The notes beneath the pieces are model-generated. The model saw nothing but the letters and a program-made list of their open reading frames with translations. It searched no databases and was not told the origin of the DNA. Of a DNA stretch of 34,410 nucleotides, positions 1-33,119 are shown in pieces. A program made the position numbers and the translations under genes. Position 1 is the stretch's first letter, and the number at the start of each line of letters is the position of its first letter. This DNA comes from Syntrophomonadaceae bacterium (GTDB lineage: Bacteria > Bacillota > Syntrophomonadia > Syntrophomonadales > Syntrophothermaceae): positions 1-34,410 of the forward strand of contig JAAYAC010000139.1 of NCBI GenBank assembly GCA_012719535.1, read 5' to 3'.

Positions 1-2935
1 CACGCCGCTCCCGGGCTTTTACCGTCCAACCGGCATCCGCAGGAAGCACGGCTTCGGCGGTACTGAGGTAGGAGAGCAGAGGCTGAATCTCATTGGCCAG
101 GCCGGCCAGTTCTTCAACCCTCTTCAGGGTGGCAAGGTACGGCTTCTGCTTATTTATATCCCGCTCGGAGTAGCGGAAGTTTTTCAACTTACCGGGAGTG
201 TTAAAAACCAGGAGTGACTCCAGAAACCCTTTTAAACTGGCCAGTTCATCCCTTAAACCGGCTTTCTTTTTCTCATCGAAGAGAGAAATACCCCATAAAG
301 ATAACTCTTGCTGGATCGCCTGCTGGGCTTGCACGGTGCGCTCCAGGAGCTGATCCACCGCTTTCTGAAGCTGCCTTACCCCTTCTTCACGAGTAGATTG
401 ATTGACGACCAGCCCGGGCGGCAGCCCCAAAAATTCAAACAGAGCCTGCAGGGGACCAAGGGGAAGATCCTTGGGACGCTCGATGTGCTTGAACTTGATA
501 AGTTCCTCCAGGGGAACTTTGCCCAGCTCCTCCAGGTTGGAAGCATCTATCTTCTTACCCGGAATGCTTAAAGTAACATCGCCGCTGTAGATCAAGCTCG
601 CCAGGATGACGACCACCCAATCCGGCTCCAATCTGAAACGGGTTTCGTACTCCACACCACGAAAATCGGCAATTATTTCGCCCCGGTTGAGTACCTGGCC
701 GGGACCCTTCCGGTCCAGCTGTCCCAGGATGTATTTGGCATAACGGGAATTTTGCGGCCTTAACTTATCTCCGTCCAGAAGCTCCAGGGCATCGAGGACG
801 GCAGCCCCCTGCCTGGTCCTGATGCTGCCGAGGATCCACTTTATCGCCTCCTGGGCAGCCTGAGGACGGTTCTTTACGGTAATAAGGATGGAGAAGGCCG
901 GGTATTCGGGCGCCAGCTCCTGGAAATAGGGTGCCAGGCAAAGGGAACCCACCAGGTTCACCAGATCCCGAACCGAGGCATGAGGAGTGGCACTGTGCTT
1001 AATCCACTCGACGAATTTCTTGGTTGCTCCCCGATAGGTAACTTCATAAGCTGTGGTGATGTTGTTCCGCAGCCATTCGACTATCTTTTTTAGCTGATCG
1101 TTAGCCTTATTTTCATAAACCTGCCGCGTTCCTTTCGAAGCCGTGCTGGCCATCTCGCTGGCGCCGGCGTAGAACTTAAGGGAACGGTCAAAGTGTTCAT
1201 CACGCTGCACCAGCCGGAAAAACACCTCATCGGGCTTTTTCTCATCCTCAAAGGGCGGCGGGTCAAAGGGCGGCAGGAAGTAGAGGTAAAAGTCCCTGGG
1301 CGGGTGGGCGGTAGAACGCTCGTTGGGAGCCCCAAAGAATAAATACCCTACCCGGGTAGCGTTTTTCTCACGCCCCTCGATTTCGTGCTCCCAAATCTGG
1401 AAATTGGGAACATACGTCGCTTCGGGGCACTCCATGGACCGGGCAAGAGCCTTAAAATAATAGCGGTCCAATTGGCTTGGGGTTAATGTCTCGGCTTTCT
1501 GCTCAATTAGAGAATCAAAGTCGATGTCCTTTTTCAGGTCAAGGTAGTACTGGCCGGTGTCCTGATTCAAAGAAATAAACTGGCCGCTCACTGTCCTTAA
1601 GATTTCACGCAACACGGTATCGATGGTAGTTTTAAGAAACTCGGCATCCTCTTCCGGCAAGGGCAAGTAAAGGCAGAGGTCGTCGCGGAGTTCTTCAGCC
1701 GTGACCCCCAGCGGGCTATAAATATCGCCGGTAGTCAGCCGGTGAACGCTCAAAGCGTGAATGATGCGGAGGGCCACAGGCTTATACTGCGGCCTTGTAA
1801 AGGCCTGCTGGACACGGCTTTCCAGCACCTGGCTCTTCTCAATCACTTCGCGAATGTCCGGATCACTGCGGAAAGAGGGATTGTCCTTTAAGGTTTGCCA
1901 GTAAGAATCATAAGCGATGAGGCCGGGGTCAGTTTCCGGAACTTCTTTGTCCAGGAGTTTTTTCATGGCAAAACTTATGGTTTTCAGCACCTCGCGCTTT
2001 TCGGCTACATAGACCCGCTCAAAAGTTTCCAGGTATGCCGGATGCACGGGGAAGAGAGCGACAAATTCGTCCATGCGCTCGGCCAGGGTGCCGTATAGCT
2101 TGGTGAAGCGCTGCAGGTGCTCCCTTATGAGGGCCTTCTGTCTGTCATTCTTGCGCAATAACCGCTGGGCAACTACGTAGGCTATGTCTTCACGGACAAT
2201 TCGTATCTGCTCAAAGCGGTCTTTGACCCGGCGCAGGGTCTCAGCCACAAACTGAAAGCGCGGGCTGTCGAAAATGGCTTCCTGCACCCCGGCCATGAAG
2301 CGAAACCGGATGAGCCGGCAAATCTCCCCGATTTCTCGCAAGAAGTTTAGGTCGAGGATTAGCTCCTGATCTTTGCGCGTGCGCAGGTAGTCCAGGAGTT
2401 CATCGACAACCAGCAAGAGCCCGTGATCCGGGTAAACTTCCTGGAAAACGTTCATCATCTCAATAAAAAGGGCTTTGTTGTTGGTAACTTTATCGGGTGC
2501 AGGAAAACGGTATTTCACCCCGAGATTAGCCAGCTGTTCTTCCAGCTCGGCGCAAATGATGTTCCTGAGGGACATCGTGGTGGAACCGATCTCGGTCCTG
2601 ATAACCTTGAACTTGCCGGCGATAACCTCCGCTTTTTTAGTCACGGCACGATCCCGTATCTTTTTGGCTAGGTCTGGATATTCCGCTATAGCAGACAGTA
2701 CCGACATTAAATGCGATTTGCCGGTACCATAGTTACCGACAATCAAAAGCCCCTTATTATCCTGGGGATGGTCGTATTGGAGCTGCGGAAAGACAACTTC
2801 AGTAATCTGCTCGGCCATCCGTTGCGAGATCACGTAGCTTTTTACCAACTCACCGGCCCTGCTTTTGGCATCAGCTTCCCGTAACTGCACTATAGTTTCA
2901 ACCGGTTCAAAATGTATCAGGTCAGCGTACTTCAC
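1..2935 (-). CDS. brxC: BREX type 3 P-loop ATPase BrxC (DUF6079-like), C-terminus beyond window
   Basis: A minus-strand frame appears open from a GTG at 2935 to the window edge (about 978 codons; regions spot-translated, not every codon). Near residue 55-75 it has a Walker A motif GNYGTGKSH and further on a Walker B-like [12 protein letters not shown], so it is a large P-loop ATPase. The rest is a long alpha-helical, charged protein with no membrane segment. BrxC/PglY proteins of BREX systems are about 1,200 residues and are needed for phage exclusion and host methylation; this size and motif layout fit. The start lies 30 bases after the stop of brxF, in the brxF-brxC order of type 3 BREX. 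The methylase, helicase and pglZ genes expected next would lie outside the window. Alternative: another DUF499/DUF6079-type defence ATPase. Confidence 0.75.
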
Positions 2936-2965
2936 AGTCTTTACCCACCTTTTCCTAAAATCTCT

Positions 2966-3424
2966 TTACCCCAGAGGATAAATAAGGGCATCGATTTCAT
3001 AATACTTTCGGTACTCCGGGTGATCTGGCTCCGCATAGACCAGCGCACCGCCCTCGAACTTGCCGTTCCATGCGGCAACGATAGTTCGATTGCGGCTGAC
3101 CTGTTGAAGCAAACGCAAGGGGTCCTGTTGAAGAACAGGATCAAAAAGTACCTCCGTATTATCCAGAAGAACAGTGTCCTTCCCCGTTTCGCCTATGATT
3201 GTCTCTACGATTCTCGGCAGGCGCAACGCTCGTATTTTAGCGGGGTATTCCAGGAGTTTCTGACTCAACATGAGGCTCAGATTAATATAGGGATAACCCT
3301 CATCTTTGGCTATTTGAACGAGAATTTTGGTTTTCCCGGTTGCAGCTGACCCAACCAGTAAAACCAGGCGATAATACCTCGACTGCGCTGCTGCTATTTG
3401 TTTTTTGAGTTCATCGGTTTTCAT
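2966..3424 (-). CDS. brxF: BREX-3 small P-loop protein BrxF
   Basis: This 152-residue protein starts at an ATG and carries a P-loop near its N-terminus (VGSAATGKTK, about residues 25-34) after a hydrophobic strand LVLLVG, and a strand-aspartate VLLDNTE near residue 95 that may be the Walker B acid. Size and pattern match BrxF, the small ATPase-like protein that opens type 3 BREX operons. It sits 38 bases downstream of an AbrB-like gene and 30 bases upstream of brxC on the same strand, so the three are probably cotranscribed. The exact role of BrxF is not established in the family. The assignment rests on size, P-loop and gene order together. Confidence 0.75.
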   Translation of the reverse strand: MKTDELKKQIAAAQSRYYRLVLLVGSAATGKTKILVQIAKDEGYPYINLSLMLSQKLLEYPAKIRALRLPRIVETIIGETGKDTVLLDNTEVLFDPVLQQDPLRLLQQVSRNRTIVAAWNGKFEGGALVYAEPDHPEYRKYYEIDALIYPLG

Positions 3425-3461
3425 GGGAATCCCAACACCTGCCTATATATTCCCTGAATAA

Positions 3462-3677
3462 TCACAGAAAGGACCAGGTTTCAGTAGCTTCCCCAAACTC
3501 ATCTTTCTTGCTGGCGGGAATAATTATCGCCTTTTCCAGGACAACCTTTCCATCGTCTTCGATTTTGAGGAGAAGCCGGTCGCCCTCTTCCATTTCAAGG
3601 GCAGTCCGTATTTCTTTTGGCAGCGTCATTTGACCTTTCGGTCCCATTTTGGGTGCAAAAATCTTCTTTTGGGCCAA
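3462..3677 (-). CDS. AbrB/SpoVT-type DNA-binding protein upstream of brxF
   Basis: A swapped-hairpin AbrB domain is visible: APKMGPKGQMTLPKEIR, then a GD turn (EEGDRLLLK). I place the start at TTG 3677, giving about 71 residues, because AGGTGG lies 5 bases upstream of it; a GTG/ATG-started longer frame reaching 3731 has no such site. Proteins of this kind bind DNA as dimers and act as antitoxins or transition-state-type regulators. No toxin gene follows; brxF follows after 38 bases instead. It may therefore autoregulate or control the BREX operon (inference). It could also be a stranded antitoxin, since the DNA just upstream is full of decayed antitoxin genes. Confidence 0.75.
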   Translation of the reverse strand: MAQKKIFAPKMGPKGQMTLPKEIRTALEMEEGDRLLLKIEDDGKVVLEKAIIIPASKKDEFGEATETWSFL

Positions 3678-3749
3678 GAAAACCACCTGCCAGAAAGTAT
3701 GGAAAACTGGATATGGAGATTTATTCGGCAAGAAAACATGAAAATCCTG

Positions 3750-3983
3750 TTAATAGACAAAGACACCCACCGGTGCCCCGGTATCGAGCTCGCCGTGGAG
3801 GTTCTCAGGAGTGATCCGCTCCAGGAGTTCCGCCAGCTCGGCCTTCTCCTTCCGAATAACAACAGCGTCCTATTTGACCTCTATGGTTACCGGAGCACCT
3901 TCTACGAGTTTCGGTTCTTTGGCCACTTTCTTTGGGACGCGCGCTGCCGCGCTGTTTCCCTGACTCGCCAGCCGCTTCTTCAC
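3750..3983 (-). pseudogene. MazE-like antitoxin interrupted by an in-frame TAG
   Basis: Reading the minus strand from GTG 3983 gives an N-terminal MazE/AbrB signature (QGNSAAARVPKKVAKE, then EGAPVTIEVK). A TAG codon follows at 3872-3870. The same frame continues with DAVVIRKEKAELAELLE and ends with ITPENLHGELDTGAPVG, the typical C-terminal tail of MazE antitoxins that contacts the toxin. The two halves join in one frame with no missing residues, so a single substitution (for example GAG to TAG) explains the break. No MazF-like gene follows; the next gene is the AbrB-like gene at 3677. Stop readthrough or pyrrolysine insertion is a remote alternative. Confidence 0.7.
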
Positions 3984-4279
3984 GCCCCGCATTCCCTTCG
4001 TAGTCAATCCGGAAAATTTCTTTTTTGTCGAAAGGACGGCAAAAAAAAGCCGTCACAGCTGCTTTCTAGTACACGAAAGCAAAGCTCACGGCCCGCACCC
4101 CCTGCACGGTCGGTTCCACATGCGAATTCCGCTAGTTGCCGGGCCTCTTCACCGTTCAGGTAGCGGAAAACTGCAGCAGTCTGAGGTCCGGGAAAACTTC
4201 GGACGGTCAACCGGAGAAATTTCCTATATTTCGTCCGGGGATGTCGAAAGGTATAAAACTATCTTCTTCTCTGAAAATG
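3984..4279. other. Gene-poor decayed stretch
   Basis: I recognise no gene here. Minus-strand frames of 60-80 codons exist but match nothing I know and have no convincing ribosome binding site. A short inverted repeat GACGGC/GCCGTC with an eight-base A/T loop lies at 4033-4052. Given the broken mazE and hicA on either side, this is probably degraded accessory DNA. Confidence 0.4.
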
Positions 4280-4366
4280 TTACGAAAAAAGTTCCCTGGC
4301 CAGGGTTTCTTTAGAGATTAAAAGTTTGGCTAGTTTTTCTCCGCTTATGTCCCGAGGTACTCTCAC
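4280..4366 (-). pseudogene. HicA toxin remnant with the middle deleted
   Basis: A 28-codon frame starts at GTG 4366, overlapping the hicB stop by four bases (GTGA). It begins RVPRDISGEKLAKLL, the usual first helix of HicA mRNA-interferase toxins, and continues straight into ISKETLARELF, which looks like the usual last residues of HicA. The central beta strands with the catalytic histidine are absent. Start, stop and both ends are in frame, so an internal deletion of roughly 45-50 codons is the simplest explanation. The toxin would be inactive, leaving hicB as an orphan. Confidence 0.6.
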
Positions 4367-4575
4367 AACGCCATGACCTCTTCTTTTACGATGTGCAGCC
4401 GGATAATTCGAGGCATATCCTTCTCATTAAAATGGCAGCGCACCGCGTCACGAACAGCAGCCCTTACCTCGTCCAGGTCCTCGCCTTCCGTGCATATGGA
4501 GTGACCGAGGGCTCGTGCCAAATATCCCCCCTCCGGGGCTTCCTCGACCAGAAAGATTATCTCCCTAGCCAACAC
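4363..4575 (-). CDS. hicB: HicB-family antitoxin-like protein
   Basis: This 70-residue protein starts at GTG 4575 behind AAGGGGG. It has the short beta-strand pattern of the HicB partial RNase-H fold (REIIFLVEEAPEGGYLARAL, then the helix EDLDEVRAAVRDAV). In this family HicB neutralises the HicA toxin. Many short HicB-like proteins of Firmicutes lack a DNA-binding tail, as here. Its partner gene overlaps its stop codon but survives only as a deleted remnant, so the antitoxin is probably without a function in toxin neutralisation. The reading frame itself is intact. Confidence 0.7.
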   Translation of the reverse strand: MLAREIIFLVEEAPEGGYLARALGHSICTEGEDLDEVRAAVRDAVRCHFNEKDMPRIIRLHIVKEEVMAL

Positions 4576-4877: not shown

Positions 4878-4952
4878 TGGTGGGCGCTACAAGACTCGAA
4901 CTTGTGACCCCTTCCGCGTCAAGGAAGTGCTCTCCCTCTGAGCTAAGCGCCC
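4878..4952 (-). tRNA. tRNA-Val(GAC)
   Basis: The minus strand folds as a complete 75-base tRNA. The acceptor stem pairs GGGCGCT with AGCGCCC, the D arm contains AGCTCAGAGGGAGAGC, the anticodon stem CTTCC/GGAAG holds the loop TTGACGC with anticodon GAC (valine), and the T arm contains GTTCGAGTC. The discriminator A and CCA end are encoded. Decayed toxin-antitoxin genes and the BREX operon begin just beyond its 3' end, the usual side for tRNA-targeted integration. Confidence 0.95.
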
Positions 4953-18890: not shown

Positions 18891-18923
18891 ATAAAAATAA
18901 AACTCCTGTCAAATAAACAGGAG
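18891..18923 (-). terminator. Leader terminator of the dynamin-like gene
   Basis: On the minus strand CTCCTGT and ACAGGAG pair around seven bases, followed by TTTTATTTTTAT. It lies between the promoter and the ribosome binding site, so it must be conditionally avoided. Confidence 0.75.
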
Positions 18924-18980
18924 CCATTAGCCACATGGCCATTCGAGCCCTAGAGCCCGGGTGAGCACCATCACCCTTAT
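18903..18980 (-). promoter_or_regulatory. Structured leader resembling a fluoride (crcB) riboswitch
   Basis: On the minus strand a hairpin GGGTGATGGTGCTCACCC (18976-18959) has the GATGG-type loop of fluoride aptamers. A small GCC/GGC hairpin follows, then CTAATGGCTCCTGT, close to the aptamer 3' part (GCTAATGACTCCTAC in known examples). The CTCC also forms the 5' arm of the following terminator, the usual switching arrangement. Against it: the expected loop pairing GGTGC/GCTCC has one U-U mismatch, and the linker after the first hairpin is longer and lacks the usual AAAC. Confidence 0.4.
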
Positions 18981-19003
18981 TCACAGTTACTGATTCCAAT
19001 GAC

Positions 19004-32583: not shown

Positions 32584-32844
32584 TTATGGATTCTTTAAGG
32601 TCTTATCATGTTCTCCGATATTCCGCAATAGAATACCGTCTTCTACGTATTGCCAGGTCATCCGGATATCCATGGTGATACTTGCCTCGAAAATATTAGC
32701 TTGCCCCCGAATTTTCTTAGTACGGAGCGAAGGATGCCGGGGATTTTCAATCAACAGTTCGAGTTTAATTTTTAAGGCTCGCCTAATTTCTATCGGCAGT
32801 TGCTTCGCTTTATCGGCGAAAAGCTCGGAATAGTATATATTCAT
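32584..32844 (-). CDS. RelE/ParE-superfamily toxin
   Basis: The 86-residue protein has the RelE-like layout: an N-terminal strand, two helices (KAKQLPIEIRRALKIKLELL), a basic KKIRG and strands ending in LLRNIGEHDKTL, resembling the common closing motif of ribosome-dependent mRNA interferases. It would cut mRNA or bind gyrase unless neutralised. Its ATG overlaps the stop of the AbrB-type antitoxin gene by four bases, so the pair is translated together. The reading frame is intact. Confidence 0.8.
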   Translation of the reverse strand: MNIYYSELFADKAKQLPIEIRRALKIKLELLIENPRHPSLRTKKIRGQANIFEASITMDIRMTWQYVEDGILLRNIGEHDKTLKNP

Positions 32845-33119
32845 AATTCAGTGAGCCCCAGGCCATTTAACAAATCTTCTTTGCTTTTTGCTGCTTTTAC
32901 CCGGCCTTCCCGTATTTGTTGTTCTACCTTCTGCTCGTCTGCCTGCCATTCTGACGAATAAAACCACATCTGATTCCTCGGAATAACCGCAACCGGAGTA
33001 ATGATCAGGCAGCCATCCTTTTCTTCAATTTCCAGCTTGTCACCTGGCTTAAGTTTAAGTTTTTTCACCAACTCACTGGGAATAGTCACCTGAGACTTCT
33101 GTTTTAATTCCACGAGCAT
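32841..33119 (-). CDS. AbrB/MazE-type antitoxin
   Basis: The 92-residue protein has an N-terminal AbrB domain (LKQKSQVTIPSELVKKLKLKPGDKLEIEE) and a C-terminal helical tail (ADEQKVEQQIREGRVKAAKS) that would bind the toxin. It is the first gene of a pair with the RelE-like toxin. AbrB antitoxins normally repress their own promoter. The ATG at 33119 is preceded by GGAGATGG. This pairing of an AbrB domain with a RelE-type toxin is a known combination. Confidence 0.85.
   Translation of the reverse strand: MLVELKQKSQVTIPSELVKKLKLKPGDKLEIEEKDGCLIITPVAVIPRNQMWFYSSEWQADEQKVEQQIREGRVKAAKSKEDLLNGLGLTEL

Follow-up and report, generated by a model that had tools for sequence, protein, structure and literature searches.

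Several small repressors that lead defence operons are already known. In the accessible parts of two reports, WYL-domain repressors of the BrxR/CapW group are described upstream of bacteriophage exclusion (BREX), cyclic oligonucleotide-based antiphage signaling (CBASS), and other systems (PMC9122601, PMC9122589), and RptR is described, in the available sections of a third, as a repressor upstream of type I restriction–modification (R-M) genes (PMC12255303). The locus studied here lies in a Syntrophomonadaceae bacterium, in a DNA stretch of 34,410 nucleotides (hereafter the window, which is the entire contig G000:C138, bases 1-34410), where a type 3 BREX (BREX-3) operon is headed by a small AbrB-type gene. 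Judging from comparative sequence data, this abrB and a leader of about 100 bases preceding it probably constitute a portable promoter-plus-regulator cassette of defence operons, the encoded protein being a probable autorepressor.

As far as the consulted portions of those reports go, the lead AbrB resembles BrxR/CapW in being encoded by the first gene of a defence operon, in being a small, putatively DNA-binding protein with a promoter region of its own, and in that one family co-localizes with several kinds of defence system. However, BrxR is a helix-turn-helix (HTH) plus WYL protein, whereas the lead AbrB is of the AbrB/MazE type and comprises 57-75 amino acids. RptR, too, is a repressor encoded at the head of a defence island and is associated with type I R-M, but it is helical, belongs to another family with no close structural homologue described in the text available, and binds the site TAGCTA. 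MazE/VapB antitoxins share the Pfam family PF04014 with the lead AbrB, which in contrast has no toxin gene behind it. For the transition-state regulators SpoVT/AbrB, it is the N-terminal part of SpoVT that matches the window AbrB; the SpoVT chain has 178 residues, and the window protein corresponds to that domain plus a short tail. The closest solved structures by sequence were also those of SpoVT (2ro5, 2w1t). Within the accessible text of the literature on BREX with AbrB, no AbrB gene was placed before a BREX operon; the sections of PMC12839542 on type 3 BREX that were available do not mention AbrB, and MazE occurs 0 times in that paper. Titles and abstracts on AbrB, MazE, or SpoVT with defence systems described no such cassette, subscription papers and outside preprints not being covered.

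On the minus strand of the window, abrB (3677..3462; TTG start, 71 codons) is followed by brxF (3424..2966), encoding a P-loop protein of 152 amino acids, and then by brxC (2935..2; GTG start), which runs into the contig edge and is represented by the first 978 of its ~1226 codons. The abrB product scored above the cut-offs of PF04014 (E 6.5e-11, 42.4 vs. 24.7 bits) and TIGR01439 (E 2.5e-11, 43.1 vs. 28.3 bits), and no WYL match was obtained for its 72-residue frame in Pfam. BrxF was assigned by NF033453 (E 2.2e-54, cut-off passed) and the PADLOC BrxF model (E 1.9e-62), and BrxC by PF19557 (DUF6079, 1376 bits) and PADLOC BrxC (E 0), the latter protein sharing 93% amino acid identity with the intact copy of genome G261. 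Adjacent brxF and brxC in canonical order, as expected for type 3 BREX, and an abrB upstream in the same direction bear out the initial annotation, which had proposed the edge of a type 3 BREX operon led by an AbrB-like gene; the spacing to brxF, given there as 38 bases, is 37 (3425-3461). A Shine-Dalgarno-like element, AGGTGG (3683..3688, minus strand), is located 5 bases ahead of the TTG and is conserved across leaders in the form ggCAGGTG/GGTG. The last four codons of the window abrB represent an extension, since the stop of its relatives occurs 12 bases earlier (alignment A4).

The initial annotation had suggested looking beyond brxC for further BREX genes; since the window, as a whole contig, cannot be extended to the left, they were sought on other contigs. 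The window is the sole DUF6079 match in the source genome; the first genes of its contig C195 encode the C-terminal half of BrxHII, which has one in-frame stop, PglZ (E 5.4e-300), and BrxA (E 4.1e-98), and both contigs end inside the operon. Given these three genes, a lack of other BREX genes, named in advance as counter-evidence, does not apply. The remaining gene, pglXI, was not found in the source assembly (best matches 28-30% identity) and is therefore either situated in an assembly gap or missing; it is present in G100, G261, G223, G247, G173 (frameshifted), and locus L035. The intact relative G261 shows the arrangement brxF-brxC-pglXI-brxHII-pglZ-brxA, identical in gene content and order to type 3 BREX as given in the accessible part of PMC10799925, to which the window operon adds the lead abrB outside the six core genes.

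To determine where else this AbrB subfamily occurs, profile A3 was searched over 398 genomes of the phylum. Matches were obtained in 15 genomes at E <= 1e-10, ten of them at E 5e-26 or better; the next best match was about 14 orders of magnitude weaker, and the weaker set comprised five genomes (six places) with E values of 3e-12 to 9e-11. A recognized defence operon is headed in nine of the ten strong matches, five of which precede BREX-3 (G000, G100, G173, G247, and G254). In G112, the lead abrB stands before HmaA, HmaB, and HmaC (E 3.5e-215, 1.9e-148, and 6.1e-157, respectively), in G111 before an Hma-like operon (DUF499/HmaC-like, DUF1156/HmaB-like, and PLD helicase genes), in G276 before IetA and IetS, with ~400 bases between abrB and ietA, and in G002 before type I methylase, specificity, and restriction subunits. 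In the tenth genome, G162, the next gene has no assigned family, and a SNF2-type helicase is encoded 3.5 kb on. The distance from abrB to the next gene, 37 bp in the window, is 22 bp in G452, 25 bp in G112, and 17 bp in G111. The order of leader, TTG start, abrB, and defence operon on the same strand is conserved. Locus L129 (4101-10001) carries an abrB cassette with a degenerate C-terminal end ahead of an unassigned gene for 472 amino acids and a gene for a SNF2-type helicase, which together may form a defence operon that has no name yet.

The leader and abrB of G112 are 91-95% identical to the BREX-3 copies up to about abrB codon 61, reaching 95.4% over 720 bp against G254 and 90.7% over 269 bp against the window. 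In all six comparisons with G112, the match through abrB stops at one identical G112 base, approximately at codon 61; past this junction, the next gene is HmaA in G112 but brxF in the other loci. These alignments, with their sharp junction near the abrB end, provide direct evidence that one leader-abrB unit has been joined to both a BREX-3 and an Hma operon. The copies heading the Hma-like, IetAS, and type I R-M operons are more distant.

In the window, the conserved leader, a candidate promoter/operator, extends over 3675..3775 (minus strand; leader profile E 3.1e-19, the window copy being in the training set). Aligned columns define its 5' box, CAGGATTT (3742..3749, minus strand), which also occurs outside defence loci, and a second box, TTGCCGAAT (3723..3731, minus strand), which reads TTGTCGAAT in other lineages. 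The second box may resemble a -35 hexamer or, alternatively, a Spo0A box, and the TGTCGAA of the pattern GCAGGA-N10..20-TCGAA presumably resembles a Spo0A box. Across lineages, the alignment runs through GCAGGATTT, TTGTCGAAT(TGG), a CCATAATCCAT-like element, and TTCCTGGCAGGTG to the TTG, covering ~100 bases before abrB. Among seven lineage representatives, 17 of 21 leader pairs scored above all 200 dinucleotide shuffles. As controls, five AbrB loci from the weaker matches were compared (30 pairs), all of which stayed within the shuffles bar two values, namely L166-L160 (32 vs. 32 for the largest of 50 shuffles) and L167-L159 (34 vs. 32). Beyond its training set, the leader profile matched the decayed loci L035, L050, and L053, the remaining cluster copies, two places in G371, and one in G388, where the leader lies directly before brxF with no abrB. 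The two leaders in locus L064 (G371) lie before an abrB-brxF relic and, ~5 kb away, before an Hma-like operon without abrB. A promoter scan returned no site in the leader and one weak site inside abrB; in G452 and G454, TTGTCG or TTATCA, 16 bases, and CATAAT were read by eye as a candidate promoter.

The arrangement of abrB before brxF was surveyed across BREX-3 loci. BrxF was detected in 66 of the 398 genomes (E <= 0.001), and the sample consisted of 60 of the 68 BrxF places over the cut-off (those left out being G289, G328, G236, G388:C72, G381:C19, G201:C4, G086:C18, and G198) and five further named loci, 65 in total, the duplicates L052 and L056 having been removed ahead of counting; at least 500 bp of upstream sequence was available for 62 of the 65. 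With a wide AbrB profile, abrB was found to adjoin brxF in 8 of the 65 loci, all belonging to one cluster, the gene being open in five (the window, G100, G254, G247, and G173) and broken in three (L035, G261, and G223); 57 loci had no abrB by this profile. The suggested survey thus yielded seven further loci with an open or broken lead abrB, so that an absence of AbrB from all other BREX-3 loci, the second counter-evidence named in advance, does not apply either. Two more were known from other searches: G452 (identities of 54% for AbrB, 46% for BrxF, and 58% for BrxC) and G454, in which an abrB relic without start codon precedes a truncated brxF (71% DNA identity). Since 8 of 65 loci have abrB in this place, the AbrB lead is a real but minority arrangement of BREX-3. 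Most BREX-3 loci have no recognizable lead regulator. Elsewhere, the place before brxF is held by HTH_17 genes (L039 and L096) and, on plasmids, by a Phd/YefM gene (Roseomonas; L130) or by WYL genes (Leisingera and Roseicitreum; L132 and L133); because WYL genes hold it on two plasmids, the likeness to BrxR is one of position alone.

These data also bear on whether AbrB could belong to BREX-3 only and control it as BrxR controls type 1 BREX. The ten loci with abrB at brxF agree with such a regulator, and since BrxF of G452 is only 46% identical, the pairing must be old. Nevertheless, we regard this explanation as very doubtful, because 57 of the 65 loci lack abrB by profile and members of this AbrB subfamily also lead operons of the Hma, Hma-like, IetAS, and type I R-M kinds; a gene confined to BREX-3 was rejected on the latter ground, and the initial framing as a BREX-3 matter proved too narrow. 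The available sections of PMC12839542 describe Hma as related to BREX, which makes it a distant relative of BREX-3, unlike IetAS and type I R-M.

The flanks of the eight cluster loci differ, and their similarity begins just upstream of abrB (window ~3755-3775), which indicates that the transferred module includes abrB; for the same reason, an assignment of abrB to the tRNA-side flank was rejected. At the far end of the module, similarity stops ~30 bases past brxA in the three loci compared. No match was obtained for abrB in plasmids, for stretch 1-3760 in phages, or for abrB and brxF in viral contigs. Between brxC and pglXI, L053 (6206-13576) and L062 (2702-9949) carry type III CRISPR effector-like genes, namely RAMP genes and, in L062, also Cas10, in an insert of ~7 to 10 kb; L036/L137 have similar-looking genes at this place, and brxC is broken in L062 and L036.

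Whether abrB is a functional gene was evaluated from its substitution pattern. The dN/dS ratios were 0.07-0.43 in the ten pairs among the five open cluster copies, 0.15-0.23 for the window abrB against its four open relatives, and 0.13-0.15 against the G454 relic; judged from these sequence comparisons, abrB is under purifying selection. Alignment A4 contains 13 invariant columns over 11 sequences from six lineages (six near-identical ones counted once), and 10 of 11 open copies begin with TTG at the aligned position, G452 having CTG. These features matter for the explanation that abrB is an orphan antitoxin or toxin-antitoxin remnant, i.e., a passenger from the mazEF- or vapBC-like modules crowding these islands. 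Its AbrB/MazE family membership, the mazE-like pseudogene in the window flank, PIN, HEPN, and nucleotidyltransferase genes near other copies, and the frequent decay of abrB are compatible with such an origin. Yet a recognized toxin follows the lead abrB in no copy read, selection has preserved the gene, and leader and lead position are conserved before different operons. Moreover, a PIN-domain gene directly behind, as in VapBC pairs, was found in three of the six weaker places (G186 and two in G179), and five of the six, tested as controls, have no leader; for the weaker place L163, the family scan gave none. We therefore consider the remnant explanation unlikely. The initial annotation had left open a different controller or an antitoxin-like safeguard. 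The latter is not supported, as only 37 bp separate abrB from brxF, no toxin gene lies between them, and none was recognized right behind AbrB in the Hma, Hma-like, and type I R-M loci; a toxin-antitoxin pairing of abrB was rejected accordingly. The different controller appears to be the likelier half of that alternative.

Alternatively, the working part might be the leader DNA, acting as a promoter or as a recombination patch, with abrB carried along as a dispensable passenger and recombination swapping operons behind a common promoter. The leader is kept where abrB is lost, the G112 junction is sharp, and, outside the cluster, 8 of 57 loci (including G371 and G388) have leader-like matches of >= 6 bits before brxF, whereas neither the 40 shuffle sets nor the reverse strand gave any. 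However, the dN/dS ratios of open copies are well below 1, the frame is conserved in six lineages, and the G112 junction sits inside abrB, not in the leader, which renders this explanation improbable.

Several observations weigh against the proposed promoter-plus-regulator cassette. Leaders without an open abrB occur at L035, L050, L053, L064 (twice), and L100, and, with L122 included, abrB is broken or gone at seven leader-bearing places, which means that the operons do not need it; an open abrB is kept at 9 to 11 such places. Four leader pairs did not exceed all shuffles: window-G454 (reached by 20 of 200), G454-G276 (6), window-G276 (2), and window-G111 (1). The 5' box pattern GCAGGA-N10..20-TCGAA was counted 15 times in 1.14 Mb vs. 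4-8 times in shuffles, partly away from defence genes, and because the 5' box occurs beyond defence loci, the similarity of the leaders may in part reflect a promoter element that is general in the phylum. In the Hma-like leaders (G111 and G371), ~11-13 extra bases between the boxes break a simple -35/-10 reading. Furthermore, CTG is the sole possible start of abrB in G452, the C-terminal end of abrB is degenerate in G162, and the AlphaFold2 monomer of AbrB, modelled with regard to the swapped-hairpin dimer fold of the AbrB/MazE family, showed two strands and one short helix at a mean pLDDT of 62.9 and was too poor for a fold search.

The state of abrB was also compared with the integrity of the operon behind it. 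Within the near-identical cluster, a BREX gene is damaged or missing in all four assessable open-abrB loci (stop in brxHII of the source genome, brxHII absent in G100, brxC broken in G247, and brxC and pglX frameshifted in G173), and all three broken-abrB loci (G261, G223, and L035 as far as its sequence reaches) have intact BREX genes. L034 was left out, its contig ending in brxC. The one-sided Fisher value of 0.029 is post hoc and derives from few, related loci in draft assemblies, and was not relied on. Three other genomes break this pattern or do not decide it: in G452, the aligned BREX parts are free of stops and abrB has CTG only, in G454 abrB and BREX are both decayed, and Hma and abrB are both open in G112.

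With regard to the promoter-plus-regulator cassette, an AbrB dimer would bind the leader and repress it. The defence operon would thereby be held low and released as AbrB runs down, for example when a new host is entered or when cells are under phage stress. With the conserved TTG, a weak start, AbrB would remain scarce and the switch would flip easily. An operon that has lost abrB would be constitutive, which would agree with the repeated cases in which abrB decayed while the leader was kept.

Upstream of the cassette, the window contains a mazE-like pseudogene with one TAG (3750..3992, minus strand; PF04014 match at 3837-3962); the shared BREX module begins about where it ends, and no mazF follows it. 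A tRNA-Val gene (4878..4952, minus strand; ARAGORN and Rfam) lies upstream of the island edge. Small open reading frames at 4200-4575 resemble HicB and a HicA relic by eye, Pfam giving no match for 4363-4575. At 32584-33119, a second AbrB-type gene (PF04014) is directly followed by a short open reading frame resembling RelE by eye, an ordinary antitoxin-toxin layout unlike that of the lead abrB. A fluoride riboswitch was detected above the gathering score at 18911-18984 on the minus strand. Upstream of the cassette in L042, L158, L034, and L062, PIN/DUF3368, PIN, and HEPN plus nucleotidyltransferase genes indicate islands rich in toxin-antitoxin systems.

In a wider sense, mobile leader-AbrB cassettes may be exchanged as a unit among unrelated defence operons, so that BREX-3, the BREX-related Hma, IetAS, and type I R-M would share one regulatory logic and signal, with AbrB loss as a common route to a constitutive operon; we see about an even chance of this. 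Few regulator families are known to keep defence operons quiet, and an AbrB lead with a shared leader would add one. The leader and abrB would also offer a sequence handle by which defence operons of unknown kind could be found, the unassigned helicase locus of G162 being an example. If true, defence operons of four or more kinds would be linked in their regulation within one clade.

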